The notes under the pieces were generated by a model, which had not been told where the DNA came from, searched no databases, and saw only the letters and a list, made by a program, of their open reading frames with translations. A DNA stretch of 64,000 nt from Pseudochryseolinea flava (GTDB taxonomy: Bacteria; Bacteroidota; Bacteroidia; Cytophagales; Cyclobacteriaceae), in assembly GCF_003286915.1 (NCBI RefSeq), contig NZ_QMFY01000001.1, positions 248,001 to 312,000 on the forward strand. The letters run 5' to 3'. Made by a program: the position numbers and the translations under genes. Each line of letters begins with the position of its first letter. The first letter of the stretch is position 1. Below, in pieces: positions 10,451-26,754 of this stretch.

Positions 10451-12343
10451 TTAAAGCGCTCCGGCTTTAATCTCATCCACAACATTGGGGTCCAGTAATG
10501 TTGTTGTGTCGCCGAGATTTGATGTATCACCTTCCGCTACCTTACGCAGAATGCGTCGCATAATTTTTCCAGAACGTGTTTTCGGAAGGCCACTTACAAA
10601 TTGGATTTTATCCGGCTTTGCAATCGGACCGATGATCTTCGAAACCTTCTCTTTTATTTCCGAACGAAGTTTTTCTTCCTCTCTTGGCTTGTCGTAACAA
10701 ATCACAAACGCATAAATGCCTTGGCCTTTGATATCGTGCGGGAACCCTACTACAGCGGTTTCACATACTGCCGTGTGTTCATCGATAGCACTTTCAATTT
10801 CAGCAGTACCGAGATTATGACCAGATACGATGATGATGTCATCGACGCGGCCGGTAATGCGATAGTATCCTTCATCGTCGCGCTTACAGCCATCGCCAGT
10901 GAAATATTTCCCTGGGAACGTCGAGAAATACGTATCCTTAAAGCGCTGATGATCGCCGTAAATTGTACGCGCCATCGATGGCCATGGGAATTTAATCGCA
11001 AGGCGTCCTTCAATATTGTTGCCTTGAATTTCCAGACCGCTTTCATTCATAACGGCGGGTTGAACTCCCGGTAGGGGTAACGTTGCAAGCGCAGGTTTCA
11101 ACTTTGTTACGTTCGCGATTGGCGCAATCATGAATCCACCGGTTTCAGTTTGCCACCATGTATCGATGATAGGACATTTTCCTTTGCCTATATTTTCATC
11201 GTACCAGTGCCATGCTTCTTCATTGATTGGCTCGCCTACGCTTCCCAAAACTTTCAATGACGAAAGATCGTGTCGTTTAACAAACTCGGGCGGTGCTTGC
11301 TGCAAAGAACGAATGGCAGTGGGTGCTGTGTAGAATATATTTACTTTATGTCTTTCAATCGCTTGCCAAAATCTTCCCCAATCTGGCCATGATGGCACGC
11401 CCTCGAACATTACCGTTGTTGCACCGGCCGAGAGTGGTCCATAAAGAATGTATGAGTGTCCTGTAATCCATCCGATGTCGGCGGTACACCAGTAAACTTG
11501 TCCTTCTTGATATTGAAATGTTGTGCGAAATGTATAGTTCGTGTAAACCATGTAGCCGCCGCAAGTATGAACCATTCCTTTTGGTCTACCGGTTGAACCC
11601 GAGGTGTACAAAATGAAGAGCATGTCTTCAGCATCCATTTCTTCCGCATCGCATTGTGCTGAAGCCTTTTGAATTTCATCGTCCCACAGCACATCACGAC
11701 CTTCCTTAATGGCAGCTCCTTTACCGATGTACTCCTTCACAATCACGCGCGAAACATCAGGACAACTTTCGAGTGCGGTATCAATGATACCTTTTAAGTT
11801 GATCGTTTTATCACCGCGATAAGATCCATCCGATGTGATGACGATTTTACATCCTGCGTCATTCACGCGATCACTTACCGATTTTGCTGAAAAACCTGCG
11901 AATACTACGGAGTGAACAGCACCGATGCGCGCACAGGCCAATATCACATAAGCGAGTTCGGGAATCATGGGTAAGTAGATGCAAACGCGATCACCTTTTT
12001 TCACGCCATTTGCTTTTAACATGTTGGCCGTTCTGTTTACCTCTTCGAACAACTGTTTATAGGTAATGTGTTTTGCTTCGTGCGCGGGATTGTTAGGTTC
12101 CCAAATGATCGCTGTTTGATTTGCTCTGGTTGCCAGATGTCGGTCGAGGCAATTTTCCGTGATGTTTAACTTGCCGTTGATAAACCATTTTACATCGGCA
12201 TTGTTGAAATCCCAGGCTAATACCTTGTCCCACTTTTTTCTCCACGTGAATTCGTTGGCTATCTCACTCCAGAAAGCTTCGGGCTGGTCGATACTTTTTT
12301 TATACTGATCGTGATAATCTTGAAGGCTTGCAATACTGTGCAT
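10451..12343 (-). CDS. acs: Acetyl-CoA synthetase (acetate--CoA ligase)
   Basis: The 630-residue AMP-forming ligase converts acetate, ATP and CoA to acetyl-CoA in the cytoplasm. The P-loop-like motif FILYTSGSTGRPKGM (A3), the hinge region ITGRVDDIIIVSGHNLGTAE, and the C-terminal catalytic lysine segment TRSGKIMRRILRK are all present. That lysine is the usual acetylation site in Acs. Length and the N-terminal ACAS_N domain (SIDQPEAFWSEIA, FINGKLNITENCLDRHL) match bona fide Acs. It is monocistronic, with a strong terminator and an inverted repeat upstream. Confidence 0.96.
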   Translation of the reverse strand: MHSIASLQDYHDQYKKSIDQPEAFWSEIANEFTWRKKWDKVLAWDFNNADVKWFINGKLNITENCLDRHLATRANQTAIIWEPNNPAHEAKHITYKQLFEEVNRTANMLKANGVKKGDRVCIYLPMIPELAYVILACARIGAVHSVVFAGFSAKSVSDRVNDAGCKIVITSDGSYRGDKTINLKGIIDTALESCPDVSRVIVKEYIGKGAAIKEGRDVLWDDEIQKASAQCDAEEMDAEDMLFILYTSGSTGRPKGMVHTCGGYMVYTNYTFRTTFQYQEGQVYWCTADIGWITGHSYILYGPLSAGATTVMFEGVPSWPDWGRFWQAIERHKVNIFYTAPTAIRSLQQAPPEFVKRHDLSSLKVLGSVGEPINEEAWHWYDENIGKGKCPIIDTWWQTETGGFMIAPIANVTKLKPALATLPLPGVQPAVMNESGLEIQGNNIEGRLAIKFPWPSMARTIYGDHQRFKDTYFSTFPGKYFTGDGCKRDDEGYYRITGRVDDIIIVSGHNLGTAEIESAIDEHTAVCETAVVGFPHDIKGQGIYAFVICYDKPREEEKLRSEIKEKVSKIIGPIAKPDKIQFVSGLPKTRSGKIMRRILRKVAEGDTSNLGDTTTLLDPNVVDEIKAGAL

Positions 12344-12403: not shown

Positions 12404-12488
12404 ACACTTTCCGGATAAAATTCTACTCTTTTTCCGGAAATTCAAATATTGTTACGACGTGTGTCTTCAACACATGATAGAATTTTCG

Positions 12489-12496
12489 TAATTTTC
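12489..12496 (+). promoter_or_regulatory. Probable -7 element of the 12.5-19.1 kb operon
   Basis: TAATTTTC is one mismatch from TAnnTTTG. It would start transcription near 12503, about 12 nt before the TTG codon at 12515, which supports that codon as the start of the nucleotidyltransferase gene. It would also exclude the longer TTG-initiated frame from 12449. Confidence 0.35.
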
Positions 12497-12514
12497 ATTT
12501 TACCCTATAACACA

Positions 12515-13462
12515 TTGAAAGAAGTTGAACACGATATTGAAACCAATGTGCTTCAAATACACATTATCAAGGCGCTTCTTTATTACGATATCTTCAATTA
12601 TCCGCTAACGGCCTCCGAAATCATGCGTTTCCTAGGCACGCAACAAAAAGACCTTGCATCACTGCGGCATGAACTCGCCGTACTCACCGCATCCAAGCAG
12701 ATATTTCAGTTCGATGAGTTCTACTCCATACAGAACTCACGTGCCAACATCGAGCGGAGGTTGCGGGGCAACGGAGAGGCTGCACGCTTCTTACCCATGG
12801 CAAAAACTAAAGCCAAATTTATCGCCCGCTTTCCATTTGTCCGTGCGGTGTTTGCTTCTGGTTCTTTATCAAAGGGTTATATGGATGAAAATGCAGACCT
12901 CGACTTTTTCATCATTACCAAACCCGGACGACTCTGGATTGCACGTACACTCTTGGTGATGTATAAAAGAATTTTCCTCTTCAATTCTTACAAGTATTTC
13001 TGCGTGAACTATTTCGTCGACTTTGATCATCTTGAGATCGAAGAAAAAAATCTGTTCACGGCAACGGAGCTTGCCACCGTGATACCATTGTACGGCGCTG
13101 AGTACTATCATCGCTTGCACAACAGCAACACGTGGCTCGGCTCGTATTTTCCCAACTATTCGAAACGGCCAACACAAGATGTGCCATCATCCGCGACGAA
13201 TTGGTTTACACGTACGGTGGAAAATTTAATGAACGTATTGGGAGGAAATAAACTTGAAGAATACTTCATGAAAATCACCATGAACAGATGGCAGCGCGTA
13301 CATGGCGATTCATATGGCAGTGATGATTTTAAGATCGCATTTAAATCGAAGAAGTACGCTTCAAAAAATCACCCGAGACATTATCAAAAGAAAATTATCA
13401 GCCTATATGCTGAAAAGCTTCAAGCGTATAACGACAAATTCAATCTCACGATGAAATTATGA
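12515..13462 (+). CDS. Nucleotidyltransferase-fold protein, first gene of the accessory cluster
   Basis: The product has about 315 residues. The frame is open from a TTG at 12449, but TTG 12515 fits the predicted promoter better, and no ATG lies near. The N-terminal 70 residues look like a winged-helix region (IIKALLYYDIFNYPLTASEIMRFLG is split helices and loop). Residues near 115-130 carry the pol-beta nucleotidyltransferase signature, GSLSKGYMDENADLDFFI, a GS followed by DxD. The second half is helical with no family I can name. Such enzymes transfer a nucleotide to an unknown acceptor, and the substrate here is unknown. The stop overlaps the next start (ATGA at 13459), implying translational coupling to the B12 radical SAM gene. 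Confidence 0.7.
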   Translation: MKEVEHDIETNVLQIHIIKALLYYDIFNYPLTASEIMRFLGTQQKDLASLRHELAVLTASKQIFQFDEFYSIQNSRANIERRLRGNGEAARFLPMAKTKAKFIARFPFVRAVFASGSLSKGYMDENADLDFFIITKPGRLWIARTLLVMYKRIFLFNSYKYFCVNYFVDFDHLEIEEKNLFTATELATVIPLYGAEYYHRLHNSNTWLGSYFPNYSKRPTQDVPSSATNWFTRTVENLMNVLGGNKLEEYFMKITMNRWQRVHGDSYGSDDFKIAFKSKKYASKNHPRHYQKKIISLYAEKLQAYNDKFNLTMKL

Positions 13463-14922
13463 AGGGCTCTGTTCTTTTTACGCATTCTTATTTTTACAAG
13501 TTAGACCCGAAGCAATGGCGATTCAAACAGCCTTATGCACCGCTTGCTACCCTACTGGCTGCTGCTGTTATTCGTGACGCTGGGTTTAATGTATCCATGT
13601 TTGACACCGGCTTAAAAGATTCGCCTTCAGAAATTATACCATCGATTCGTTCTCACAAGCCGGAATATTTGGTGATCTACGACGATGGATTTAACTACCT
13701 CACGAAAATGTGCCTCACCAATATGCGTGAAGCCGCTTTCATGATGACAAAAATCGGGAAGCGTTTTGGCTGTACCGTAATTGTATCGAGTTCCGATTCT
13801 TCAGATCACTACGAAAAATATTTACAAAACGGCGCTGACTATGTCGTTCGTGGTGAAGGTGAGGAAACACTGAAAGAATTGCTTTTAGCTTTGAAAGCGC
13901 GAAAGACTACGAGCGAACTAGCAGGCATCGCCTACTTACGTGGATTAGAAACCGTAGTTAATCCTGCGCGCCCCGTCATGCGCGAGCTCGACCATCTTCC
14001 GCTCCCCGCATGGGATCTTGTCGACCTTGATCCATATCGAAAGATATGGATAAAGCATCATGGCTACTTCTCGGTAAATCTCGCAACCACACGCGGTTGC
14101 CCTTACAAGTGTAATTGGTGCGCCAAGCCGATTTATGGCAACCGCTACAACTCGCGATCGCCGCAGCACGTGATTCGCGAAATTGAAATGTTATTATCGC
14201 AGTACAAGCCAGATCATTTTTGGATGAGCGACGACATCTTTGGATTAAAACCGGGATGGGTACAGGAATTCAACAAACTTGTTAACGCGAAAAAACTTTC
14301 CTTTAAATATAAAATTCAATCGCGTGTAGATTTGTTATTAGAGGAAGATAATCTTGCCGCGCTCGCTGAATCTGGTGCGGAAACGATTTGGGTGGGCGCT
14401 GAATCCGGCTCGCAGGCGATTCTTGATGCGATGGACAAAGGAACCAAGGTTGAACAAATTTATACCGCAGCTCGATTGATGAAGGAGAAAAACATTCGTG
14501 TCGCATTCTTCCTTCAATTTGGCTACCTCGGAGAAACAAAAGATGATATTGATGCAACCATTCGAATGGTGCTCGATTTAATGCCCGACGAAATTGGAAT
14601 TTCCGTTTCATACCCGTTGCCTGGAACGAAATTTTACGAAAAAGTAAAAGGACAACTGAAGGATAAACAGAACTGGAGTGATTCTGACGATTTAGCATTG
14701 ATGTTCTCGAGTACATTTAACAACCAGTACTATAAAGAGCTTCACCGTTATGTGCACAGCGTCTACCGAAAACATAAAGGTTATGATAGTTTGGGGAAAC
14801 TGTTTGCCAATCCATTGCGTCTAACGTATAAAGATGTACGTGCTGGCCTCGCTACTTTGTATTATCTGCCAGCAAGTTTGATGCGCGAGAAAAAATTAAA
14901 AAAGCTGCAGACTGCTGAATAA
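13459..14922 (+). CDS. B12-binding-domain radical SAM enzyme (cluster copy 1)
   Basis: This is a 487-residue cobalamin-type radical SAM protein. Residues about 1-150 form the B12-binding Rossmann domain (PLATLLAAAVIRDAGFNVSM, ADYVVRGEGEETLKELL). No DxHxxG base-off motif is visible, which is common in this class. The radical SAM core has the [4Fe-4S] motif CPYKCNWC with Cys 214, 218 and 221, then the WMSDDIFG and ETIWVGAESGSQ segments of the barrel. Relatives act as methyltransferases or ring-forming enzymes in lipid, pigment and antibiotic pathways, so the exact reaction is undetermined. It overlaps both neighbours (ATGA upstream, TAATG downstream), placing it inside a tightly coupled operon. 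Confidence 0.85.
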   Translation: MKGSVLFTHSYFYKLDPKQWRFKQPYAPLATLLAAAVIRDAGFNVSMFDTGLKDSPSEIIPSIRSHKPEYLVIYDDGFNYLTKMCLTNMREAAFMMTKIGKRFGCTVIVSSSDSSDHYEKYLQNGADYVVRGEGEETLKELLLALKARKTTSELAGIAYLRGLETVVNPARPVMRELDHLPLPAWDLVDLDPYRKIWIKHHGYFSVNLATTRGCPYKCNWCAKPIYGNRYNSRSPQHVIREIEMLLSQYKPDHFWMSDDIFGLKPGWVQEFNKLVNAKKLSFKYKIQSRVDLLLEEDNLAALAESGAETIWVGAESGSQAILDAMDKGTKVEQIYTAARLMKEKNIRVAFFLQFGYLGETKDDIDATIRMVLDLMPDEIGISVSYPLPGTKFYEKVKGQLKDKQNWSDSDDLALMFSSTFNNQYYKELHRYVHSVYRKHKGYDSLGKLFANPLRLTYKDVRAGLATLYYLPASLMREKKLKKLQTAE

Positions 14923-15719
14923 TGGCATTGCCCTTCGACCATATTGACGTAAAAAACGACACGCTCCTGACGCCTTACGCGGTTGGTCAATTTCAGCGTA
15001 AAATCGTGTGGGACTACCTTAGCCAACTCGCTATTACATTAGACGGTTTCGAGATTTTAGAGTTGAATGTGGGCAGCGGCGACGACGCACTTCTCTTCAG
15101 CGAAAAAGATTTTAACATCGTTGCAACAGACATTTCTGAAGCAACACAGCAAGTTACTACACAACGAAACACCACGCTCACATTTCAGAGAAACATCAGC
15201 TCTCAATATCTTGATCTTGAGGGTATCAATGAGACTGTGTTTCATAAAAAATTTGATTTGATATTTTCAAACTTCGGCGGCATCAACAGCATGAGTCCGG
15301 AAGTAGCGCAGAAACTATTTCAACGTATTCCTGCTATCCTAAAACCTGGAGGCCGCATTGTAGCGTTGGCGATGTCGCGATTTTGCCTTTGGGAGTCGCT
15401 GTATTTTTTACACCGATTTCAATTTAAAAAAGCATTTCGGCGTTGGACAAACACTGATGTAAAGGGATACTTGAACAATCAACAGTGCAAAACTTGGTTC
15501 TATTCTCCGGGACAAATCGGTGCTTGGTCGAAAGAACGTTTCAAGGTAAAGCGAATTATTCCTGTTGGAATTGCGCTACCTCCATTAAGTCTTGAGGGAC
15601 TGTTTACGTCGCGAAAAAAATTACTACTGAGATTGAGTTCCATCGAACAACGTTTCAAAAACATATCTTTATGTTCGCGCATGTCGGACAATTTTTTAAT
15701 CGATCTACAGCTCATTTGA
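14922..15719 (+). CDS. Class I SAM-dependent methyltransferase (paralogue A)
   Basis: The 265-residue methyltransferase has motif I ILELNVGSGDDALLF and motif II region NIVATDIS. The later FDLIFSNFGGIN replaces the usual motif IV, followed by RFCLWESL. It is clearly paralogous to the next gene, sharing the LELNxGxGxDAL and SNFGGxN signatures. The SAM-binding site looks intact. The acceptor may be a sugar or lipid precursor of the cluster product, but this is inference. Its ATG overlaps the stop of the radical SAM gene. Confidence 0.8.
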   Translation: MALPFDHIDVKNDTLLTPYAVGQFQRKIVWDYLSQLAITLDGFEILELNVGSGDDALLFSEKDFNIVATDISEATQQVTTQRNTTLTFQRNISSQYLDLEGINETVFHKKFDLIFSNFGGINSMSPEVAQKLFQRIPAILKPGGRIVALAMSRFCLWESLYFLHRFQFKKAFRRWTNTDVKGYLNNQQCKTWFYSPGQIGAWSKERFKVKRIIPVGIALPPLSLEGLFTSRKKLLLRLSSIEQRFKNISLCSRMSDNFLIDLQLI

Positions 15720-15734
15720 AGTTCTTAATTGCAG

Positions 15735-16538
15735 ATGATGTCTTCTGAAAATTTTGATGCAGTTAATAAAGCATTTAGTAAGCAATCGGGTACATTCGAT
15801 GCCGACGATCGCGCAAACATTATCCTCACCGATATGCGCGAACAGGTTTATGCACACGTCAATACGTTCATAAAACCAAAAAGTGTAGTGCTTGAATTGA
15901 ATGCAGGTACCGGCATAGATGCGTTGCATTTCGCTAGTCAAGGACACAGCGTTCACGCCACCGATCTTTCTGATGGAATGATCGAACAATTGAACGAGAA
16001 AATAAAAAAACACTCATCCCTATCCATCTCAAGTCAACAGCTCTCTTACGATTCGCTTGACGTTTTACATAAAAAAAAATTTGACTATGTGTTTTCAAAC
16101 TTTGGCGGATTGAATTGTATTGATGATCTGAGAAAAGTAACGAAACATTTGCCGGGGTTACTTCATGCTGGAGCTTACGTAACATGGGTGATCATGCCGC
16201 CGGTTTGCCCTTGGGAACTCGCTGGTATTTTCAAAGGAAGATTTCGCGGTGCACTTCGACGTTTTCACCGCGACGGTGTGATGGCACATCTCGAAGGCGA
16301 ATATTTCAAGACATACTATTTTTCGCTTCAGCAGATCAAGGAGGCTTTCGGAAATGATTTTGTTTTCATAAAATCAGAAGGACTCGGCGCTATCATCCCG
16401 CAGCCTCATCGACCTGATTTTCCGGTGAAGCATCCATCGCTTTACAAAGTGTTGCGTGCAGTTGATAAGGGGGTGAGGAACAATATGCCATTTAACCGCT
16501 GGGCTGATCACATTATTGTTACCTTTCAACGCAAATAG
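15735..16538 (+). CDS. Class I SAM-dependent methyltransferase (paralogue B)
   Basis: The product has about 267 residues starting MMSSENFDAVNKAFSKQS. The ATG at 15735 is preferred to an upstream TTG at 15729. SAM-binding motif I reads VLELNAGTGIDALHFA, then HATDLSDGM and FDYVFSNFGGLN, and a CPWEL segment aligned with the CLWES of the preceding paralogue. The C-terminal third differs most between the two, suggesting different acceptors. It lies 15 nt after paralogue A and 8 nt before the third methyltransferase. Confidence 0.8.
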   Translation: MMSSENFDAVNKAFSKQSGTFDADDRANIILTDMREQVYAHVNTFIKPKSVVLELNAGTGIDALHFASQGHSVHATDLSDGMIEQLNEKIKKHSSLSISSQQLSYDSLDVLHKKKFDYVFSNFGGLNCIDDLRKVTKHLPGLLHAGAYVTWVIMPPVCPWELAGIFKGRFRGALRRFHRDGVMAHLEGEYFKTYYFSLQQIKEAFGNDFVFIKSEGLGAIIPQPHRPDFPVKHPSLYKVLRAVDKGVRNNMPFNRWADHIIVTFQRK

Positions 16539-16546
16539 TTTTATCG

Positions 16547-17332
16547 ATGTCAATTCAATCCTTTCTTGCAAATCATCCTGATTTCTATCGCGAGGGTTTG
16601 TTATTCTTCCAGCGACGTCTTGCAAGAGAATCGGATTTCGAAAAAGCCTACATTACGTTACGTGAAAAAGAAGGCCGTGTATATTCGGATGATGTAGTGA
16701 AAGCTCTGCCCGTTTATCGAGGTGGCGCAATGCTTGAAAAGGAATGGAAGATTCGAAAACGCTCTGCCGATAAACTGATTGGATATCTGAAGAAGAAGCC
16801 ATTCAATTCTATTCTTGAGGTCGGTTGCGGGAATGGATGGCTTTTAAACTATATCAACCAATCGATGAAGATTGGCTTACTGGGCATTGATATTAACGAA
16901 ACAGAACTTCGACAGGCTGCAAGCTTATTTTCTCCTAACATCTCATTTGCTTGTGCCGATGTGGATAGCGATCTACCGTCTAGCTTACGTGCTGATGTAA
17001 TCTTATTGCCCAGTGCTCTGCAGTATTTTGAAAACCCTATAAAACTAATTACAACGTTGATAACTAAACTAAACCCGAATGGAGAGTTGCACGTCTTCGA
17101 TTCACCACTGTACAATGCCAACGAAGTCGACGCTGCCCAATCGCGATCAAAAGAATATTTTACGAAACAGCGCGTCGAACCGATGAAGGGCATGTACTAT
17201 CATCATGCCTGGAATATTTTAGAATGCTTCGAGCACGTAATCATGCACGATCCGCGTTCTATTCGTAACCGAGTTTTTGCGAAGGTGGGAACTGTGTCGC
17301 CATTCCCTTGGATAAAAATCAAGGCTAAGTAG
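16547..17332 (+). CDS. Class I SAM-dependent methyltransferase (third in operon)
   Basis: The 261-residue protein has an N-terminal extension of about 90 residues (including the YRGGAMLEKEWKIRKRSADKL segment, cut by loops) before motif I, ILEVGCGNGWLLNYI, and LLGIDINETEL. The post-motif segment DVILLPSALQYFENP is typical of Methyltransf_11/12. It is only distantly related to the two preceding paralogues. Substrate is unknown. The SAM site is intact, and the C-terminal segment GMYYHHAWNILE recalls methyltransferases acting on sugar or lipid intermediates, a weak hint only. Confidence 0.78.
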   Translation: MSIQSFLANHPDFYREGLLFFQRRLARESDFEKAYITLREKEGRVYSDDVVKALPVYRGGAMLEKEWKIRKRSADKLIGYLKKKPFNSILEVGCGNGWLLNYINQSMKIGLLGIDINETELRQAASLFSPNISFACADVDSDLPSSLRADVILLPSALQYFENPIKLITTLITKLNPNGELHVFDSPLYNANEVDAAQSRSKEYFTKQRVEPMKGMYYHHAWNILECFEHVIMHDPRSIRNRVFAKVGTVSPFPWIKIKAK

Positions 17333-17381
17333 TATTTATCGAATTATATGGCGAATATCAAACTCAAAACATCAACATTTT

Positions 17382-19115
17382 ATGCTCAGGCATACGATCA
17401 GGGATGCGTTCAGATTGATTCGTCCTACGCAACGCACTAAGGGTGGACTGATCCTCTCGTTATTAATGATCCAATCCCTTCTTGACTTTTTGGGGTTACT
17501 ATCATTTTTGCCGCTTTTTGGACTCATCATAAACCCGGATTTGCAAGATAGAATAGGGAATTATGGGAATGTATTCCCAGCTCTCAGCCAGCAAACATTG
17601 CTGATCGCCCTAACTCTTGCTGTTCTCCTTTTCGTTTTGATAAAAAATTGGCTAGGGCTGTTGATTGCAAAAACAAAAGCAAAATTTATTTATAATGTAG
17701 CCAAAGATTTATCTGCCCGTGCGATTGAAGCCTATACACGTCGGAATTATAATTCATTCTCGAAGACCGACTTCAGCAGAGAAGTGAACATCATTGCAAA
17801 CTACCCATTCGTTTTTGCAACAAACATTATAACGCCGATAGCAACGTTGATATCAGAGACATTGGTAGCAACATTAATTCTCATAGGCCTGATCATCCTT
17901 GATTTTAGAATACCGATTTTACTGTTGCTGCTGGCCGCACCGCTATTCTTGCTGTATCGATCGCGAAAGAAAAAACTCGCTGCCGTCCGAGATACGTTGA
18001 AAGAACAGTACCCGTTACTTTTGAAAAACTCGCTTCAGCTTATAGAAGGGCTGATGGAAATTAAATCTTCAGCAAAGGAGCATTACTTCATAGATAAGCA
18101 GTCTGGGCCAAGTGCAAAACTGTCAGAAGCCTATGTGCGTGATCATGTAACGCAAACCGGGACAACAAGAATTACCGAAATCGTTGCAACCTTTATCATC
18201 TGCGGATTGATTCTTTACACCACGCTTGCTACAACGCACTATCAGGATACCATTTTTATGCTCAGCATCTACGCCAGTGCTAGTTTCAGAATCATTCCGT
18301 CTATCAATAGAATTTTATTAAGCATATTACAGTTTAGGACGCATGATCATGTGATCGCAATTTTGGGTGAGGCGACTAAGGCAGACGACACCATCAAGTC
18401 CTCCCCTGCCGAAAGCGTCCCATTATTTAATCGTCAAATTAGGCTTCAAAACATTAGTGCGAGATATGCAGGCGGCCCTTGGATTTTAAGAAATGCGAAT
18501 ATCACGTTGAACAAAGGGGATCGCATAGCGCTTACAGGTAAATCTGGTGAAGGCAAATCTACTTTGCTACTAGTTCTTCTCGGGCTTCTCGAAACAGAAG
18601 AGGGAGAATTTTTTATCGACGATGTGGCTGTAGGTGCATCATCGCTCAGGGATCTCATCGCTTACGTTCCACAAAACCCTTACATTCTTGACGCGTCTCT
18701 TATAGAGAATATTGCGCTGGGAATTCCTGAACAACAAATCGATCGTTTGAAGATCACAAAGATCATTCACGAGTTAAGACTCAATGACTTAGTTGCCCTG
18801 CTTCCTGAAGGAATGGATCAGGGCATCGGAGAAAGAGGTGTAAAGCTTTCCGGTGGTCAACAACAACGTTTGGCGATTGCGCGAGCGCTCTATTGCGACA
18901 AGGAAATCCTACTTTTTGATGAAAGTATGAATCAAATTCATGAATCGCTGGAAAAGGAAATTCTAGACCTTGTTTCTGGCTTGTCGTTAAAAGGAAAGAC
19001 TGTTTTGATGATTACGCACAAAACGCATAACGCGAGTTTCTTCGACACTGTCTACACACTTGACAAAGGTAGTTTTACTAAAGTTAATGATACCGTCACT
19101 TTTTCCGACCGCTAA
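17382..19115 (+). CDS. ABC transporter, fused permease-ATPase, PglK/flippase-like
   Basis: This 577-residue half-transporter has six predicted membrane segments in about 1-320. Its N-terminus (GLILSLLMIQSLLDFLGLLS and LPLFGLIINPD) resembles PglK-type lipid-linked oligosaccharide flippases. The nucleotide-binding domain has Walker A GKSGEGKST (about 386), signature LSGGQQQRLAIARAL, Walker B ILLFDES, and H-loop MITHK. The D-loop, normally SALD, reads NQIH here, an unusual change next to an intact catalytic Glu. It probably moves the cluster product or its lipid-linked precursor across the inner membrane. The gene is 49 nt after the third methyltransferase, and its last 20 bp overlap the convergent glycosyltransferase gene. 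Confidence 0.85.
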   Translation: MLRHTIRDAFRLIRPTQRTKGGLILSLLMIQSLLDFLGLLSFLPLFGLIINPDLQDRIGNYGNVFPALSQQTLLIALTLAVLLFVLIKNWLGLLIAKTKAKFIYNVAKDLSARAIEAYTRRNYNSFSKTDFSREVNIIANYPFVFATNIITPIATLISETLVATLILIGLIILDFRIPILLLLLAAPLFLLYRSRKKKLAAVRDTLKEQYPLLLKNSLQLIEGLMEIKSSAKEHYFIDKQSGPSAKLSEAYVRDHVTQTGTTRITEIVATFIICGLILYTTLATTHYQDTIFMLSIYASASFRIIPSINRILLSILQFRTHDHVIAILGEATKADDTIKSSPAESVPLFNRQIRLQNISARYAGGPWILRNANITLNKGDRIALTGKSGEGKSTLLLVLLGLLETEEGEFFIDDVAVGASSLRDLIAYVPQNPYILDASLIENIALGIPEQQIDRLKITKIIHELRLNDLVALLPEGMDQGIGERGVKLSGGQQQRLAIARALYCDKEILLFDESMNQIHESLEKEILDLVSGLSLKGKTVLMITHKTHNASFFDTVYTLDKGSFTKVNDTVTFSDR

Positions 19116-20229
19116 TCCCATCCAAAAAATTCAGATAATTAAGGTAAGCATACCGGGCATCATGTTGTTTGATCCAATCACGGGCTGTGCGTGTGATCGA
19201 ATCGTAACGGTGCTGATCGTGCACGAGCCGCAAAATTTCAGCAGCCAATTCATCTGTCGATTGGGGTTCAACGATGTTCGCATACTGATTTCCAAGATCG
19301 GCTAATATTCCAACATTCGTTCCACAAACGGCAACGCCACTAGCCATAGCTTCTTGAATTACTGCACAGCCGGTCTCGAATCGTGCTGTATGTAAAAGTA
19401 TATGTGCGCGATCGTAGTATTCATGTAACTTCGCACGCGGAACAAACCCCACCCGCGTAACTTTATTTTCAACACCTAGTTCCGTTAACATCGCATTCAC
19501 TTTCACATTATCGAAGCCGTAGCCGACCACAGTGAGATGACAATCTATTTGTGTAGCAACTTTGGCGAACGCTTTAAACATCGTATCCTGATCTTTCACG
19601 ATACCATAAAACCCAACCTGAATAAAATGAACAGGGTATTCAATTTTTCGTTTACGGTAAACAAAATCATTGACGTTAATACGTAACGGTAACACGTCTA
19701 TATGACGTGTGGTCGGGAGACTGGTTACAGCTAGCGTGCGCTGATAATCGGCAACGGTGATTAGCCTATCTGCGTGTTTACAGACAAATTTTGTAATAAA
19801 TCGCCGCCACGGAATCACGAGTTGCACACTAACATCTTTAATCCGCGTCGCTTCTGAGGCGATCAATTGTACGAGCACTGGTCGATTTATAAGCTTACCC
19901 AAGACCAATGAAAAAAGTCCAGAAGGATACACCGAAACCGAGAACAGCAGAGTAAACCGATTTTGGATATGATCCGCTAGGGCATGAAAAAAAAGAATTA
20001 GATATTTTAAGCGCCAAGGAAATTTCATCGCGATGATTTGGCGCACGACAATATTCGTAGGAATATTGTCCTTCCTCACACGCGTAAAAGAATAGTAAAC
20101 AATATCATATTGCTCAGACAGCCGTGAAAACAAATCAGCGATCACAGGAATTCCTTCGCCGGACTGATCTCCCCCAAGTGAGCCCACTCCAAAAAGAGCG
20201 ATCCGAGGTTTATTGTTAGCATTGCTCAT
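19096..20229 (-). CDS. Glycosyltransferase, GT4-like (third of trio)
   Basis: The 377-residue GT-B fold enzyme has an N-terminal glycine-rich turn (ALFGVGSLGGDQSGEG) and a C-terminal donor-binding half with PRAKLHEYYDRAHILLH and FETGCAVIQEAMASGVAVCG. The latter is the E-x7-E-type motif of retaining GT4 enzymes. It overlaps the upstream glycosyltransferase by 4 nt (ATGA), and its 3' end overlaps the ABC transporter gene by 20 bp on the opposite strand. Donor and acceptor cannot be predicted. Confidence 0.85.
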   Translation of the reverse strand: MSNANNKPRIALFGVGSLGGDQSGEGIPVIADLFSRLSEQYDIVYYSFTRVRKDNIPTNIVVRQIIAMKFPWRLKYLILFFHALADHIQNRFTLLFSVSVYPSGLFSLVLGKLINRPVLVQLIASEATRIKDVSVQLVIPWRRFITKFVCKHADRLITVADYQRTLAVTSLPTTRHIDVLPLRINVNDFVYRKRKIEYPVHFIQVGFYGIVKDQDTMFKAFAKVATQIDCHLTVVGYGFDNVKVNAMLTELGVENKVTRVGFVPRAKLHEYYDRAHILLHTARFETGCAVIQEAMASGVAVCGTNVGILADLGNQYANIVEPQSTDELAAEILRLVHDQHRYDSITRTARDWIKQHDARYAYLNYLNFLDGISGRKK

Positions 20230-21344
20230 AGCGCCCGATAGATTTGTCTTGTTCGATCAATCGTCCAGTGAATGTCCTGTTGTGTTGCCCACCGACGAGC
20301 GTACATCAGACAATCATCGATCGCTTGATGATTCTTTAGTATTTCTAAAACCAATGTTGCAAGATGTTTATGATCCCCTACATCAGCGGTGAGGCATCCT
20401 TCACGCACATCAAACATTACGCCTACTCGGGTCCCACACACCAATAGTCCACTGCTCATCGCTTCTGTGACTACCTCACTTTGCCCTTCCGATAAAGATG
20501 TATGCAACAACACATCAGCAGCATCGTAATATGCTGGCAATGATTCGTAAGCCAACGGTTTCAATAACGTGACATCGTTCTTGAGTTCAAGTTCATTGAC
20601 CAAATTAATAACTTTATTGTAGTCTGTTCCTTCTCCGATCATGGTGAGATGACCATCAACGTTATCCCGAATGATCCTAAACGCCCTAAGCAAAGTAGTT
20701 TGATCTTTCACGGGTGTTAAGTTGCCAATATGCAGGAACTTTACTGGTGCCGATATCTGTCTTGTCTTGAATGAGAACAAGGAGGTGTCTATTCCCCAGG
20801 GAACAACGACGATCTTTCTTTTCAATCCATGGCGTGTGAGGTTATCGACAAGATATTGCGTGAGTGCCATAGGGTGAGTTGCGTTGGTCAGTGTCCATAA
20901 GACCAATTTCCTAGTAAGCGGCTTTCGCAGCAGTCCATAGTTTATTTCCGGTACGGAAGCACCATCTCCACCTAAAACGCTTACAACACTTCGAATACCA
21001 AAAAGTTTTCCAATGAACACAGCGAGAAACCCTGAAGGCAAAGCCCAGAATCCATGAATGGCAACAAATTTATTTTGACGATGGAGTTTTCTGAATGCGT
21101 GCAGAAGTGCGACGCTTTTTCTAAATGTACTGCGAAAGGGAATACTGATTACCTGAAACCCATCAGGAATATAATCGGCATTCACCGGAAATAAGGAGAA
21201 GACCGTGATATCAAAATCCTTTGCCAGCATTCGAACTTGTCGCTCCAGTACGGGCACGCCAATGTTGTTTGCACCGGTGCCAATCCCACCGGGAACAATA
21301 ATGGCTATGCGCAGTCTTTGTCGTTCATCCATCCGCACCGTCAT
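20226..21344 (-). CDS. Glycosyltransferase, GT4-like (second of trio)
   Basis: The 372-residue GT4 enzyme begins AIIVPGGIGTGANNIGVP after a short lead. It has the donor-site segments KFLHIGNLTPVKDQTTLL and LLHTSLSEGQSEVVTEAMSS with GLLVCGTRVG. It is paralogous to the third gene, with the same YYDAADVLLHTS / YYDRAHILLHTA arrangement. Both may act in sequence on one acceptor. It overlaps the first glycosyltransferase by 20 bp and the third by 4 bp, so the trio is one operon. Confidence 0.85.
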   Translation of the reverse strand: MTVRMDERQRLRIAIIVPGGIGTGANNIGVPVLERQVRMLAKDFDITVFSLFPVNADYIPDGFQVISIPFRSTFRKSVALLHAFRKLHRQNKFVAIHGFWALPSGFLAVFIGKLFGIRSVVSVLGGDGASVPEINYGLLRKPLTRKLVLWTLTNATHPMALTQYLVDNLTRHGLKRKIVVVPWGIDTSLFSFKTRQISAPVKFLHIGNLTPVKDQTTLLRAFRIIRDNVDGHLTMIGEGTDYNKVINLVNELELKNDVTLLKPLAYESLPAYYDAADVLLHTSLSEGQSEVVTEAMSSGLLVCGTRVGVMFDVREGCLTADVGDHKHLATLVLEILKNHQAIDDCLMYARRWATQQDIHWTIDRTRQIYRAL

Positions 21345-22407
21345 TAATTACTGACAACATTTTGTTAGCAATCGCATCATGTGAAAGATGTTTCGAAAAT
21401 TGCTGGAGAACTTGTTCGCGATATTTTTCGACATCAATGAATGAGCTCTTTTCTAACGCGTTGGCTAATGCTTGCGCGTTGCCGCGTTCAAATAAGAAAC
21501 CAACTTTACCACGGCCCGTCATAAAAATAAAAGAAGGAATCTCTGACAGTACGGGAATGCATCCGCACGACATCGCCTCACAAACAGCAGTACCGCTTCC
21601 TTCGTAGTGCGAAGTGGCGATTACAAAGCTACTCTGATTATAATGATGTTCTAGTTCAATGTGCGGAACATCTTCAATCAAGATCACGGAACCTGAGAGT
21701 CGTTCCTCTTTTATTATTGCTTCAACTTCGCTTCTAAGTGTTCCGCCACGAAAAATAATTGTCAGAACGCAATGTGGATTTTTTTTCAAGAAAATTGAAA
21801 ACCCATTTAACAATGTAAGCGGATCTTTATTGTGATCCAATCGTCCAACCCAAAGGTATCGTTTCTTATCCCGATCAACATTCGTGCATTGAAAGGAAGA
21901 TGACACCTCCATTACTTCATGAACTTTTTCGTTACGTTTGATTTGCTGAGCATCTATCCACGGGCGAGCAAGTCCCGCTTCGGTAAAAAAATATCCCTCA
22001 ATGCGTTGGTCTGCATAACGCTGAAAAAAAGCTTTATGAAATCGAAGCGGTTTCTCTGCGTGATGCTGCACAAAAATCCTTGAAGATTTACGTAACGTGT
22101 TCTGGAGCTGAATCAGCTGCCAAGGAAATATTAATCCATGAACGATAACAACATCAGCATCGAGTTTTGAAACATATTTATGTAGGCGCAATGGGAAAAC
22201 GATTCCCAATTTTAATAGGCGTAAGAAATGATAAGTAACGTCATGCTGTTCAAGGGTACCCTCGTAATCGATACAATGCACGCTTTCAACTTTTACTTTT
22301 CGTGCCATGGCCTCAGCAATTCCAGTATAAAAAATTATTTTTTGAAGCCATGTTTTTGGATCTGACTGATTCATGACGCGCGCGTAAGAGAGAAACACCA
22401 CCTTCAT
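21325..22407 (-). CDS. Glycosyltransferase, GT4-like (first of trio)
   Basis: The 360-residue glycosyltransferase starts MKVVFLSYARVMNQSDPKTW. The acceptor half contains ADVVIVHGLIFPWQL and FVQHHAEKPLRFHK. The donor half has YLWVGRLDHNKDPLTLLNGF and the GT4 signature SHYEGSGTAVCEAMSCG. It is less similar to the other two than they are to each other. It is the promoter-proximal gene of the minus-strand trio, divergent from the second B12 radical SAM gene across 248 bp. Confidence 0.85.
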   Translation of the reverse strand: MKVVFLSYARVMNQSDPKTWLQKIIFYTGIAEAMARKVKVESVHCIDYEGTLEQHDVTYHFLRLLKLGIVFPLRLHKYVSKLDADVVIVHGLIFPWQLIQLQNTLRKSSRIFVQHHAEKPLRFHKAFFQRYADQRIEGYFFTEAGLARPWIDAQQIKRNEKVHEVMEVSSSFQCTNVDRDKKRYLWVGRLDHNKDPLTLLNGFSIFLKKNPHCVLTIIFRGGTLRSEVEAIIKEERLSGSVILIEDVPHIELEHHYNQSSFVIATSHYEGSGTAVCEAMSCGCIPVLSEIPSFIFMTGRGKVGFLFERGNAQALANALEKSSFIDVEKYREQVLQQFSKHLSHDAIANKMLSVINDGADG

Positions 22408-22623
22408 AAATTCATTAACATAGTGAGGAGAGTAGATATCCCACGCGTGAGGGTATTGGCCATAAACCGCACTGATACTTCTGCAGAACAGAGTGACCGT
22501 TAAGCAATTTCCGCAGCCGGTTCTTGAGCATTAAAATATGACGATTGTTTTGAGTAAAAATAAGACATCGTCATTTGGAATCAAAAGCTACGTTGTGATG
22601 TATTAAGTGTCATTAAATAATTG

Positions 22624-22651
22624 TTGGCGCCAATTAGGTTGCTTACTTTAG
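22624..22651 (+). promoter_or_regulatory. Promoter with embedded palindrome upstream of the second B12 radical SAM gene
   Basis: TTGGCGCCAA (22624-22633) is a perfect 10-bp palindrome. Its TTG also serves as a possible -33 element. TACTTTAG (22644-22651), one mismatch from TAnnTTTG, is the -7 candidate, 4 nt before the ATG at 22656. A palindrome between -33 and -7 is a classic operator position. No matching regulator gene is seen in the cluster. Confidence 0.4.
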
Positions 22652-22655
22652 AGAG

Positions 22656-24170
22656 ATGAATAAGGTTATACTATTCAATCCGAAGAGCGCGCGATCCAAA
22701 CATCGCATACCGAATTCTATTTTGCAGGTGGCGGCATCCATCCACGGTAAATTCGAATATGTGATTGTAGACGGAAACATGGAAAAAGATCCATGGATTA
22801 AGATCAAACATTATCTCGACACAGGCGACTTCCGGTTCTTTGGTTGCACGGCGATGCCCGGACCACAATTGCGACAGGCCATTCCTTATACAAAACAAAT
22901 CAGGCAATTATATCCAAAGGTGATTAACATCTGGGGTGGATACTTTTCTTCGAATCAACACCCGTCGGTATTGAATTCAGGCTACGTTGATTTCGTGATT
23001 AACGGCCCTGGCGATGAGGTTTTTCCACGACTCCTTGAAGCGCTTATTGAGGGGAAGCCGCATCATGAGTTTGAAAACCTGATTTATAAAGACAGCAACA
23101 ACAAAATAATTAAGACAAGACAATCTGCCCTACAAGATCAGGATACGTTGCCGCAGCTACCCTATGATTATCTGAATCAATTTTATCCTGTCAGGAATTA
23201 TCTTGGTAAGACTTTCCTTGGAAAACGGACCGCTGCGTATCATTCCAGTATGGGTTGTCCCTTCACCTGTTCATTCTGTGCTGTGGTTCCATTGTACAAT
23301 GCGCGATGGAAGGGAAAATCTGCCAAGTTGATTTACGAAGATGTGAAGTATCTCAAAGATGTTCATGGTGCTGATGCGATTGAATTCCATGACAACAATT
23401 TCTTCGTGAGTGAAAAGCGTACAGTGGAATTCGCAAAGCTCGTCCGCCACGAAAATATCAGCTGGTGGGGCGAAGGACGAATTGACACCATTGACAAATA
23501 TTCCGATGACTCACTCGCCATCATGCGCGATGCCGGGTGCCGCATGATCTTCTTCGGTGCTGAGACAAGCAATGATGAGCTTCTGAAAAAAATGGACAAA
23601 GGCGGCACACAGACAACTGCGCAAATGAAAAAGTTTGCTGCACGCATGATGAAGTTCGATATTATTCCAGAGTATTCATTTGTACTGGGTTTCCCTGGCG
23701 AAACACCAGAAAAAGTAATGGAACAAATCGATCGCGATATTGCCTACATCAAAGAAATTAAAGCGATCAATCCGAAGACAGAGATCATCATTTATGTATA
23801 CAGTCCTGTGCCTGTTGAGGGTTCGGAGATGTATGAGATGGTGAAGAAGTCGGGATTCAAATTTCCCGAAGTGCTTGAAGACTGGCTTGGCGCAGAATGG
23901 CAAAACTTCGATTTGCGAAAAAATCCCCTGACGCCCTGGCTGACACCAAAGATGGTAAACAAAATACTTGGATTTGAAACGGTGCTCAACGCGCAATATC
24001 CGACGGTTTCTGATTTTAAAGTGACAAACCTCCAAAAAAAGGTGATGCATCATCTTTCCTCCTTTCGTTATCGATTCAATGTATTTGCATTCCCTTATGA
24101 ATTAAAAGCGCTACAAAAGTTTTGGCTGCGCTATCGTCAGCCGGAGATTGAGGGATTTTATCAGGAATAG
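22656..24170 (+). CDS. B12-binding-domain radical SAM enzyme (cluster copy 2)
   Basis: The 504-residue protein has an N-terminal B12-type Rossmann domain (VINIWGGYFSSNQHPSVLNS, YVDFVINGPGDEVFPRLLEAL). The radical SAM core has CPFTCSFC with Cys 201, 205 and 208, then DAIEFHDNNFFV and GCRMIFFGAETSN. The C-terminal region of about 120 residues (GAEWQNFDLRKNPLTPWL and onwards) is typical of this B12 radical SAM class. The product is unknown; methyl transfer to an unactivated carbon is one possibility. It is 3 nt upstream of a methyltransferase, repeating the radical SAM + methyltransferase order of genes 13459/14922. Confidence 0.85.
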   Translation: MNKVILFNPKSARSKHRIPNSILQVAASIHGKFEYVIVDGNMEKDPWIKIKHYLDTGDFRFFGCTAMPGPQLRQAIPYTKQIRQLYPKVINIWGGYFSSNQHPSVLNSGYVDFVINGPGDEVFPRLLEALIEGKPHHEFENLIYKDSNNKIIKTRQSALQDQDTLPQLPYDYLNQFYPVRNYLGKTFLGKRTAAYHSSMGCPFTCSFCAVVPLYNARWKGKSAKLIYEDVKYLKDVHGADAIEFHDNNFFVSEKRTVEFAKLVRHENISWWGEGRIDTIDKYSDDSLAIMRDAGCRMIFFGAETSNDELLKKMDKGGTQTTAQMKKFAARMMKFDIIPEYSFVLGFPGETPEKVMEQIDRDIAYIKEIKAINPKTEIIIYVYSPVPVEGSEMYEMVKKSGFKFPEVLEDWLGAEWQNFDLRKNPLTPWLTPKMVNKILGFETVLNAQYPTVSDFKVTNLQKKVMHHLSSFRYRFNVFAFPYELKALQKFWLRYRQPEIEGFYQE

Positions 24171-24173
24171 TGG

Positions 24174-24860
24174 ATGAGAAAATTCTTTACAACCCTCGTC
24201 GGATTTCCGTTGCGTGTAGCCACACAGTGGTATCTTTCCAAAACCAGAATCTTTCGTTATGACGCGTTACGAATTCGAGTCTCTTCCGGGGTATTCCATC
24301 CAGGTTTTTTCTTTAGCACGCGTTACCTTCTTTCGTTTCTAAAGACGCAACAACTTACGGGTAAAAAATTTCTGGAGCTCGGGTGTGGCAGTGGTGTAAT
24401 CTCCGTTTTTGCCGCAAAGAAAGGCGCAAGGGTCACGGCTTGCGACATCAATGAAAAAGCCGTTGCTGATGCAACCGAAAATGGCCTATTTAACAAAGTC
24501 CCATTAACCGTTGTGCATTCAGATCTGTTCAGCAACTTGACAGAATCATTCGACTGGATTGTTATCAATCCTCCTTACTATCCTGCCGATCCAAAAGACG
24601 AAGCACAACATGCGTGGTACTGCGGTGAGCATCATCAATATTTCGAAAGATTATTTTCTGATGTAGGAAAGTATACAACCCAAGATGGTAAAGTACTGAT
24701 GATACTTTCTGAAGTATGCGATCTTCAAACGATATTCAATATTGCGGCGAAACACAAATTTGCATTTGAGACGATCAGCGAACGCAACGTATGGGCCGAT
24801 GGAAAGAACTACCTCTATTGGATTGTCCCGTCAAAGCATCTGTCGAAGTCCGAGGTGTAG
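24174..24860 (+). CDS. SAM-dependent methyltransferase with NPPYY motif
   Basis: This 228-residue enzyme has motif I FLELGCGSGVISVFAAKKGA, the acidic ACDINEKAV loop, and motif IV VINPPYY. The NPPY motif is shared with PrmC/HemK and other N-methyltransferases that act on amide or amine nitrogens, and is unlike the other three methyltransferases here. The N-terminal 60 residues (TRIFRYDALRIRVSSGVFHP) precede the SAM domain and may bind substrate. The true housekeeping prmC is elsewhere in the window, so this is a specialised paralogue. Its 3' end overlaps the convergent SPASM radical SAM gene by 30 bp. Confidence 0.8.
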   Translation: MRKFFTTLVGFPLRVATQWYLSKTRIFRYDALRIRVSSGVFHPGFFFSTRYLLSFLKTQQLTGKKFLELGCGSGVISVFAAKKGARVTACDINEKAVADATENGLFNKVPLTVVHSDLFSNLTESFDWIVINPPYYPADPKDEAQHAWYCGEHHQYFERLFSDVGKYTTQDGKVLMILSEVCDLQTIFNIAAKHKFAFETISERNVWADGKNYLYWIVPSKHLSKSEV

Positions 24861-25853
24861 AGAACACACACATTTTTGACATGTGGCGTTTTCACGCATA
24901 TTAAGATTCTTTCGATAAGCAATCGCTTGTTGTGAATTGACTATCTCAGAAAAGGAGTGTTTGTAAATATTCCCGTAAGCAGGAAGAAAGAAGCATGGCT
25001 TAACCTCGCCATCAGTTTCAATCACCGCGGATACCCAGGGCGCATTGCATTTTTTTGCAGGAAAATCAATCAGCCCTAATGAGGCACGATAGTATTGCAC
25101 GATATCTAGCATCTTTTTCTTGGATTCCGCGACGAAACGTTGCTCATACAATTCCGCATAGTCCAGGAATGATTTCTCAATGATATCTTGAAGTTCATCT
25201 GTTTCATTTTTATCAAGACCAACCTCCACAACTTTGTCTTGCGTCCACGGATTTTCGCGATTGAAAGCGGTTGATGAAAGATCGGCGGGCAGGAAAGATA
25301 TCTGATCTACCGCTAAAGATTTTGCTGCTTCCAGGATGTGTGGGAAGTCACGGTAGTTTAATTTCTGGATAACGGTGCGGGCGGTAATTCTAAAATTTGT
25401 CTTGATTATTTTTATAGCCGCGATTCCTTCCTGCAATTTCTCATATGCTCTTGGAAGGTTTCTGATTTGATTGTGAACATCATGCGATCCATCGAGGGAG
25501 ACCGTTACCTCATCGCACCAATGTACGACTTCCTTTGCGTGATTTTTCAGCGTTATCCCAGTGGACAGCAAGGTGATTTTGACTCCAATAGTTTTGAGTT
25601 GTTCACACAGCTTCCAGAGATTATCATGCATCAACGCTTCACCACCGGAAAAAGCTACATGCTTCACCCCGAGTTTTCTAAAAGAATCAATGTGCAGCGC
25701 GAGTGTATCTGAATTTATCTCTTGTTTGTTATGATTTGCTTTCCAGATGTCACACATCACACAACGGCAATTGCAACGGCTATGCGGCATCAGCACCAGT
25801 ACGGGTAGTGCAGAAATTCTGTTCGTCGCTAATGTCAGCAATCGATTAAGCAT
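24831..25853 (-). CDS. Radical SAM/SPASM-type enzyme
   Basis: The 340-residue radical SAM protein has the core motif CNCRCVMC. The cluster-binding CxxxCxxC uses Cys 27, 31 and 34, and Cys 29 is an extra. It then has HVAFSGGEALMHDNLW and EVTVSLDGSHDVHNQIRN. The C-terminal part KKCNAPWVSAVIETDGEVKP plus CQKCVCSLHLG is a SPASM-like auxiliary iron-sulfur domain. Relatives modify peptides or small metabolites or act in cofactor assembly. No precursor-peptide ORF is obvious next to it. Convergent overlap with the NPPYY methyltransferase suggests it belongs to the cluster, though it has its own transcription unit. Confidence 0.82.
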   Translation of the reverse strand: MLNRLLTLATNRISALPVLVLMPHSRCNCRCVMCDIWKANHNKQEINSDTLALHIDSFRKLGVKHVAFSGGEALMHDNLWKLCEQLKTIGVKITLLSTGITLKNHAKEVVHWCDEVTVSLDGSHDVHNQIRNLPRAYEKLQEGIAAIKIIKTNFRITARTVIQKLNYRDFPHILEAAKSLAVDQISFLPADLSSTAFNRENPWTQDKVVEVGLDKNETDELQDIIEKSFLDYAELYEQRFVAESKKKMLDIVQYYRASLGLIDFPAKKCNAPWVSAVIETDGEVKPCFFLPAYGNIYKHSFSEIVNSQQAIAYRKNLNMRENATCQKCVCSLHLGLRQML

Positions 25854-25959: not shown

Positions 25960-26754
25960 CTAATGCATCATCTGCTCCACCACCACAGCAAGCAATGCGC
26001 CCACAACGGCCACGGCCATCTTCTTTGCATTAAACCTATGCTCGGGACTGCTTTCAAAAACGATCGTTGTGGAGATATGCAAGAAATTACCACTCACCAA
26101 TGCATTCAGTGCGATCATTCCTGAGGCCGTTAAAATCTCTTCGTTGGCGAGGTAGGTGCTGAGTAAAAGTCCGGCTGGGGCTGCAATTGAAAATACCAAT
26201 AAATGCGGAAGGGCTTTTTTACGGGACTTCAACTGAAATGCAAGAACCGTCATCAAAGCAAAGGCTGCAGGAGCACGGTGTAACGCAATGCCCAAAAGAA
26301 TTGCATTCTGATCGTTGTGCGTTCCGCCGAATGTCATTTGAGGTTGCGCTAACATTCCGCCTTCTAAAAATGCGTGAACGCAAAGGGCAATGAGCAATAC
26401 GATAGCCGATACGGATTGCTGGGTTTGATCGAAATGATGATGGTGATGATGATCGTGGTTATGGCTGTGATCGTGGCCGTGGGAATGTAAATGGCCGTGC
26501 TCAATACCCGAGGTGAAGTATTCCAATAGCTGTTGCAGAAAAAATCCGCCCAACACAAACAAACCAATCCACTCGTATGATCCACTTTGGCGATAAAGCT
26601 CAGGAAGGATGTGGATGATGGTAATTCCAAATAAATAAGCGCCGGCAAAAACGAGTAAAAGCTTAAAGCTTGAATTCTTTCCCTTTGGAACAAAAAAAAT
26701 AGAAAGTCCTGATAGTAACGGTGTTAAGAAGAGGACGGCGAGTTTGATTAACAT
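25960..26754 (-). CDS. ZIP-family divalent metal transporter
   Basis: The 264-residue inner-membrane transporter has about eight membrane segments. A cytoplasmic-loop-like His-rich region (around residues 93-115, alternating His with Asp, Ser, Gly and Asn, and including a run of six His) lies between TM3 and TM4. The ZIP metal-site motifs are visible as HAFLEGGMLA (TM4) and ALHRAPAAFALM (TM5). Import of zinc or a similar metal is expected. An inverted repeat sits 9-23 bp upstream of the start, a reasonable place for a metalloregulator operator. Confidence 0.87.
   Translation of the reverse strand: MLIKLAVLFLTPLLSGLSIFFVPKGKNSSFKLLLVFAGAYLFGITIIHILPELYRQSGSYEWIGLFVLGGFFLQQLLEYFTSGIEHGHLHSHGHDHSHNHDHHHHHHFDQTQQSVSAIVLLIALCVHAFLEGGMLAQPQMTFGGTHNDQNAILLGIALHRAPAAFALMTVLAFQLKSRKKALPHLLVFSIAAPAGLLLSTYLANEEILTASGMIALNALVSGNFLHISTTIVFESSPEHRFNAKKMAVAVVGALLAVVVEQMMH

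Follow-up and report, generated by a model that had tools for sequence, protein, structure and literature searches.

Within a stretch of 64,000 nucleotides of Pseudochryseolinea flava (contig NZ_QMFY01000001.1, positions 248,001 to 312,000; hereafter the window), twelve open reading frames (ORFs), named A to L, make up a cluster in which the nucleotidyltransferase A, the B12-type radical S-adenosylmethionine (SAM) enzyme B and a methyltransferase of the type of C and D form a real conserved core inside a familiar kind of locus; its chemistry could prove more novel. The explanation that we favour, with a probability of about one half, is that of a variable surface-glycan or glycolipid locus around this near-obligate core, which would make or alter an unusual building block. 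Among relatives A, B and the C/D-type methyltransferase are nearly constant, while the methyltransferases E and K, the transporter F, the glycosyltransferases and the radical SAM proteins J and L vary, and for this reason we describe a conserved core in a variable locus, not a cluster peculiar to one strain.

Linkage of the core genes among relatives

In a sample of 296 genomes of the phylum, searched with thresholds of E ≤ 1e-20 for A and E ≤ 1e-60 for B and J, A and B were found in exactly the same 24 genomes, belonging to 13 families, and no genome had one of them alone. The gap between the two was of 0–4344 bp in all 24 (at most 4.4 kb), counting in G344, where the match of A was split between two contigs, the part adjoining B. 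J was present in 15 of the 296 genomes, all within this set of 24: in 13 it was on the contig of B, within 16.6 kb, in G344 on the contig holding the other piece of A, and in G310 the match was weak (227 bits) and located elsewhere than B. Moreover, among the 59 nearer genomes, including that of the window, A occurred in the same nine as B at full strength (E 3e-139 or better). The co-occurrence on which the original prediction was to be judged is strong for A, B and J. The chance figures of 8e-36 for A/B and 2e-19 for J ignore the kinship of the genomes and are not probabilities of a biological claim.

A scan of a species-genome collection (84,980 species) revealed at least 534 stretches encoding relatives of B, of which the best 80, selected with the motifs YDDGFNY or [YF]KCNWCA, were kept, so that the following counts hold for close relatives only; near-copies are counted as well (L120 and L138, for example), and only genes up to 10 kb away are covered. 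The loci came from Cytophagales, Flavobacteriaceae (Kordia, Aquimarina, Winogradskyella), Chitinophagales, Saprospiraceae, Sphingobacteriaceae and Ignavibacteria. Considering the 61 loci with at least 3 kb of flank on each side, A was no more than 5 kb away from B in 56, being its immediate upstream neighbour, in the same orientation, in 46; a C/D-type methyltransferase was within 5 kb in 60 and directly downstream in 57; both were within 5 kb in 55. A was missing within 5 kb of B in 7 of the 80 loci, and six of these seven genomes hold it somewhere. The correlation between A and B distances in 75 loci (Pearson 0.83, Spearman 0.59) lacks a species-tree control and is not used as evidence.

The other genes were far less regular. 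The 45 loci with flanks of at least 8 kb contained J in 20, E in 20, an ATP-binding cassette (ABC) transporter in 17, L in 11 and K in 9, and in 24 we found B2, a further B12-type radical SAM enzyme that four same-genus genomes carry roughly at the position of D/E in the window. B2 and L were never together (0/45), and B2 and J in only 6/45; the window represents the type that lacks B2 and has D, E, J, K and L, and among the loci viewed L085 had the most similar gene order. On a tree of B with 58 rows the B2 label required 10 changes, compared to a shuffled mean of 19.4, which indicates that B2 is clustered yet often gained or lost; the rows needed only 2 kb on the left and 5 kb on the right, and some of those labelled as lacking B2 may reflect missing sequence.

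The contig L105, which bears the title Thermoanaerobaculia, also carries B and C. Either this title or the binning is probably mistaken: a phylum search around its genome (G351) gave the same places and scores as the set of the window's own phylum (e.g., G456 as G156), so that the genome seems to belong to this phylum and the search says nothing about others.

Gene content of a variable slot

The cluster and its edges are arranged as follows.

A, 12449..13462, + strand: nucleotidyltransferase of the Pol-beta/MNT kind with a putatively winged-helix-like front; real start probably 12515 or later
B, 13459..14922, + strand: B12-type radical SAM enzyme, core gene (Pfam, NCBIfam, fold, cysteine conservation)
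C, 14922..15719, + strand: class-I SAM methyltransferase, core gene; a C or D type adjoins B in most loci
D, 15729..16538, + strand: second methyltransferase, grouped with C in one sequence community; start probably 15735
E, 16547..17332, + strand: class-I methyltransferase, recurrent, not universal (Pfam, neighbour grouping)
F, 17382..19115, + strand: ABC exporter/flippase-like protein (top NCBIfam match PglK)
G, 19096..20229, - strand: GT4-type glycosyltransferase (Pfam, NCBIfam)
H, 20226..21344, - strand: GT4-type glycosyltransferase (Pfam)
I, 21325..22407, - strand: GT4-type glycosyltransferase (Pfam)
J, 22656..24170, + strand: second B12-type radical SAM enzyme (Pfam, NCBIfam)
K, 24174..24860, + strand: methyltransferase (Pfam MTS), directly after J (Pfam, NCBIfam)
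L, 24831..25853, - strand: radical SAM + SPASM protein (Pfam, cysteine motif)
Left edge of the slot, outside the system, 10451..12343, - strand: acs (AMP-binding, acetyl-CoA synthetase-like)
Right edge of the slot, outside the system, 25960..26754, - strand: ZIP transporter (zip), with ruvB next at 26869

By coordinates and by the Pfam scan of the window, the 12 ORFs (12449–25853) fall into four transcription units, namely A–F on the + strand (12449 or 12515 to 19115), I-H-G on the - strand (22407–19096), J-K on the + strand (22656–24860) and L alone on the - strand (25853–24831). Six of the 11 neighbouring pairs overlap by 1–30 bp (A/B 4 bp, B/C 1 bp, G/H 4 bp, H/I 20 bp, and the convergent F/G 20 bp and K/L 30 bp). 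Pfam recognised four class-I methyltransferases (C, D, E, K), three GT4-type glycosyltransferases and one ABC ATPase, ABC_tran being the sole domain recognised in F; B and J consist of B12-binding and Radical_SAM domains, and L of Radical_SAM and SPASM. The CxxxCxxC motif is intact in B (214), J (201) and L (27). The number of genes, the four units, the overlaps and, for the radical SAM proteins, the intact catalytic motifs of the original prediction are therefore borne out, as is the lack of polyketide synthase (PKS) or nonribosomal peptide synthetase (NRPS) genes, no such Pfam domain being found among the 12 proteins. The combination had also not been recognised as a named pathway. In agreement with this, none of the ten proteins scanned (A–G and J–L) reached an NCBIfam cut-off among the matches listed, the best 25 in the case of B, F, K and L, and a literature search covering titles and abstract openings, with subscription papers mostly outside it, found no description of the cluster.

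The genome of the window, G000 (6.5 Mb, 48 contigs, 99.27% complete), has the cluster in a single slot between acs and zip/ruvB. Four of the six same-genus genomes examined (G001–G006) carry related clusters in this slot, and the other two a single methyltransferase. In G001, G004, G005 and G006, the last with a locus fragmented across contigs, the slot contains A-B-C-B2, an ABC transporter and partly different glycosyltransferases; J-K was found in G001, G005 and G006, and is missing from G004. L was not found in the slots of these four carriers, and E, F, the glycosyltransferases, J and K vary as well, even within the genus. The identity to the window proteins (A 55–56%, B 72–74%, J 79–80%), together with the fact that the genes are kept together, makes the cluster more than a chance assembly. 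The same slot with differing content is the pattern of a variable island, and the exchange of glycosyltransferases at a fixed slot is that of a surface-glycan locus.

In G002 and G003 the slot holds one relative of C only, 47–50% identical to C of the four carriers and 41% to C of the window. This lone methyltransferase, between acs and zip at L168:13432-14337 and L169:13368-14174, has an altered SAM glycine-rich motif (HQGSDED vs NVGSGDD in C of the window) and is perhaps a decaying remnant, if not the ancestral state. G006 (L072, L073, L079) apparently has two versions of the downstream cassette, each with B2 at a contig end, one like G001 (B2, ABC, J-K, zip, ruvB) and the other like G004 (B2, ABC, other glycosyltransferases, part of zip); a repeat, a strain mixture or two loci could explain them.

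To describe the surroundings of the core in relatives, the neighbour proteins were grouped by the Louvain method into 114 communities; 22 were hand-picked from the 60 best-spread, and 20 were scanned by Pfam. These comprised four GT2, two GT9, two GT87, two Wzy_C, one PMT_2 and one GT4 community, one polysaccharide deacetylase, one amidohydrolase, one methyltransferase and five without a Pfam match, one of which NCBIfam identified as a WaaS/CpsH glycosyltransferase (161.8 bits, cut-off 60). On the basis of these family assignments, the neighbourhood in relatives is in large part envelope-glycan gene content. The amidohydrolase (L123:6689-7849 and relatives) recurs in 9 loci; it is similar to aminofutalosine deaminases (46 bits) and less so to 5'-deoxyadenosine deaminase (18.8 bits). 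A nucleotide tag might be its substrate, or else the 5'-deoxyadenosine that radical SAM enzymes release as a by-product. Four further recurrent proteins of 327–510 aa (L073:9657-10811, L093:18627-19607, L111:13627-14817 and L147:13611-15140) matched no Pfam or NCBIfam family at E ≤ 0.001.

Possible chemistry of the core and alternative explanations

A of the window scored 20.2 bits with the Pfam nucleotidyltransferase model, just below the cut-off of 21; PF01909 was matched by all nine aligned members of A tested (best E 2.1e-4). The G-S and DxD motif of the Pol-beta/MNT superfamily is present and, in an alignment of 43 sequences, G138, D150 and D152 are invariant (43/43), S139 is found in 39/43 and position 199 is always E or D, E199 being the putative third carboxylate. 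The predicted structure is of high confidence (predicted local distance difference test, pLDDT, 91.3) and has no secondary structure in residues 1–19 of the longest frame, which makes a start at 12515 plausible. The N-terminal part, with single weak Pfam matches to HTH_DeoR and TrmB, appears winged-helix-like in the model. The top structural matches by Foldseek were MNT antitoxins, AadA and ANT enzymes (E 1e-2 to 1e-1), and a profile search of the PDB sequences gave nothing better than E 0.75.

In B, the three cluster cysteines are present in 75/75 sequences, and the B12-binding domain scored 35.2 bits, above the Pfam cut-off of 32.1 (J, 29.6 bits, remained below it). AprD4, a close fold match of B, is not known to use cobalamin. 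The predicted structure (pLDDT 83.0, weakest at the cysteine loop 211–230, at 77–83 and at 320–326) retrieved TsrM (1.1e-18), MgmA (1.6e-17), OxsB (7.1e-15), AprD4 (1.2e-14), and also TokK and CysS, with E values overall from 1.1e-18 to 7e-12, template modelling (TM) scores normalised by B of 0.56–0.64 and 16–20% identity. Since these nearest folds belong to methyltransferases (TsrM, MgmA, TokK, CysS), to a diol dehydratase (AprD4) and to a ring-contraction enzyme (OxsB), the type of reaction is not readable from them. The loop after strand 3, part of which (YDDGFNY) served as a search pattern, is near-invariant; according to PMC13331322, the same loop holds the lower-face residue in OxsB, which is only suggestive of cobalamin binding by B. 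Residues 422–485 form two long predicted helices at the end of B, and this tail could touch the membrane or a partner protein.

From these features the following scheme may be drawn. A would transfer a nucleotide, most likely adenosine monophosphate (AMP), to a small sugar- or polyol-like acceptor, its tagging of a small substrate being suggested by its fold. B, with the methyltransferase C and here also D, would act next on the intermediate, whether tagged or bound to a lipid, through C-methylation, dehydration of a diol or rearrangement of a ring, and the J-K pair and the SPASM enzyme L may add further alterations. The GT4 enzymes G–I would then join the unusual unit to sugars on a lipid carrier, and F, a putative flippase by its PglK-like top match, would move it across the inner membrane. 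We infer in this way the substrate, the order of the steps, AMP as the tag, the use of cobalamin, the product and its location. A parallel for the nucleotide tag is offered by Fom3 and PhpK, which reportedly methylate nucleotidylated phosphonates. A second one is OxsB, which, according to PMC13331322, acts on adenine nucleotides. More tentatively, A-B may represent an undescribed step, distributed across the phylum, in which a sugar or polyol receives its nucleotide tag and so becomes open to C-methylation, dehydration or ring rearrangement by a cobalamin radical SAM enzyme; the resulting monosaccharide-like unit would be new to surface glycans, and B2 or J-K-L would be alternative follow-on modules.

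Several observations weigh against the surface-glycan explanation. No recognised initiating sugar-phosphate transferase, polymerase or ligase is among the 12 genes, the three Wzy_C matches of the genome being outside the cluster, and the neighbour families in relatives were chosen by hand and may include genes of other systems. The Foldseek matches of A are weak (best E 1.1e-2, none at E ≤ 0.001, TM score to the query about 0.23), and hence AMP transfer to a sugar is not distinguished from protein AMPylation or another nucleotidyl reaction. One genome of the seven checked, that of L144, has B and no A; nine of the 24 core genomes, and G004 too, lack J at E ≤ 1e-60, and J-K is therefore not essential to the core. 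No Rfam family was matched within the window at the gathering score, and thus no known cobalamin riboswitch is found there. Short ORFs of 22–38 codons are present in three of the four gaps, SPASM enzymes often act on peptides and, finally, we know of no product, substrate or mutant for the cluster. The single glycosylated, multiply methylated product of the original prediction stands only in part: the linkage of A, B and J and the glycan surroundings in relatives are in its favour, but the 12 genes are not one fixed pathway, and a single product can only be presumed.

The best of the alternatives, which is possible but clearly less probable, is that the cluster produces a small glycosylated natural product for secretion; F would then be the exporter, and the tailoring would fall to the methyltransferases and radical SAM enzymes. 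Many tailoring enzymes are indeed packed together, A resembles the ANT/AadA nucleotidyltransferases and several of the nearest folds of B (TsrM, OxsB, TokK, AprD4) serve antibiotic or similar pathways. However, the 12 proteins contain no PKS or NRPS domain by Pfam, the change of glycosyltransferases at a fixed slot and the Wzy_C, GT9, GT87 and WaaS/CpsH neighbours point to envelope glycans, and 13 families in the phylum sample is a wide distribution for a specialised metabolite.

It appears rather improbable that the substrate of the radical SAM enzymes, and of L in particular, is a peptide or protein, either similar to a ribosomally synthesised and post-translationally modified peptide or a glycoprotein, which is later glycosylated and exported. 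The SPASM domain of L, the peptide maturases among the sub-threshold NCBIfam matches of B, J and L, and the short ORFs in the gaps would fit this idea, but the scores of the window proteins are below the cut-offs among the matches listed, no precursor candidate was recognised among the short gap ORFs of the window, and L is found in only 11 of the 45 loci with the longer flanks, and none was found in the slots of the same-genus carriers.

A pathway for hopanoid or other lipid head groups, of the HpnH/HpnJ kind, or for ladderane-like lipids is still harder to sustain. HpnJ was the first NCBIfam match of J (118.7 bits, then BchE, 104.7) and the second of B (124.6 bits, after BchE, TIGR02026, 162 bits; HpnJ is TIGR03471), the ladderane radical SAM model gave 102.8 bits with B and HpnH 52.3 bits with L, and in B2 BchE ranked first and HpnJ third. 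All these scores miss the cut-offs by far (HpnJ 577.6, BchE 481.35, HpnH 225.05, ladderane 360), and PF13249, the N-terminal domain of squalene-hopene cyclase, was not found in G000, at the completeness reported above; in a control with 14 genomes it was matched in B. subtilis only. The hopanoid pathway was set aside on these two grounds.

A defence or regulatory module in which the MNT-like A AMPylates and controls its partner enzymes, as in MntA-HEPN pairs, is the least credible explanation: MNT antitoxins are the top structural matches of A, A and B are a strict pair and weak PADLOC matches exist (L to pVip, 57.5 bits), but Pfam scans covering the cluster and its near flanks found no HEPN domain, glycan genes surround the core in relatives, and the PADLOC matches of the nine proteins scanned (A–F and J–L) are generic, at most 71.7 bits, and look superfamily-level (methyltransferases to mad2, ABC to mad3), so that a defence system was rejected.

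The surface-glycan explanation thus remains the preferred one. In any case, a strictly linked enzyme pair without a named function lies in apparent surface-sugar loci of many environmental and marine Bacteroidota, and A next to B can be used as an annotation signature replacing 'hypothetical protein' and 'radical SAM protein'. If the explanation is true, these bacteria produce a sugar or glycolipid by means of B12 radical chemistry.

Comparison with known systems

With the MNT, ANT and AadA nucleotidyltransferases A shares the G-S...DxD signature and a weak structural match (TM scores normalised by A about 0.2–0.26); by contrast, it is larger than MNT, has the winged-helix-like N-terminal part and a helical tail in its predicted fold, and no HEPN domain stands beside it in the window. 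B has the B12-binding-like front and the radical SAM core with CxxxCxxC of the class-1 cobalamin radical SAM enzymes and their kin, but differs from them in the low identity given above, in reaching no NCBIfam cut-off and in its helical tail 422–485. To our knowledge, the partner genes of the TsrM, MgmA, AprD4, OxsB, TokK and CysS pathways are not those of this cluster. HpnJ and BchE are the top-scoring named families for B and J, which nevertheless score far below their cut-offs, in a genome where no hopene cyclase was found.

The top NCBIfam match of F is the flippase PglK, over residues 67–563, but its 217 bits do not reach the equivalog cut-off of 1000, and other ABC exporters follow at 162–181 bits. 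Finally, the locus as a whole shares with the variable loci of O-antigen and capsule the fixed flanks, the exchanged glycosyltransferases and, in relatives, the Wzy_C, GT9 and WaaS/CpsH neighbours; it differs from them in its core of a nucleotidyltransferase and two or three radical SAM enzymes, a combination not found in the literature search.

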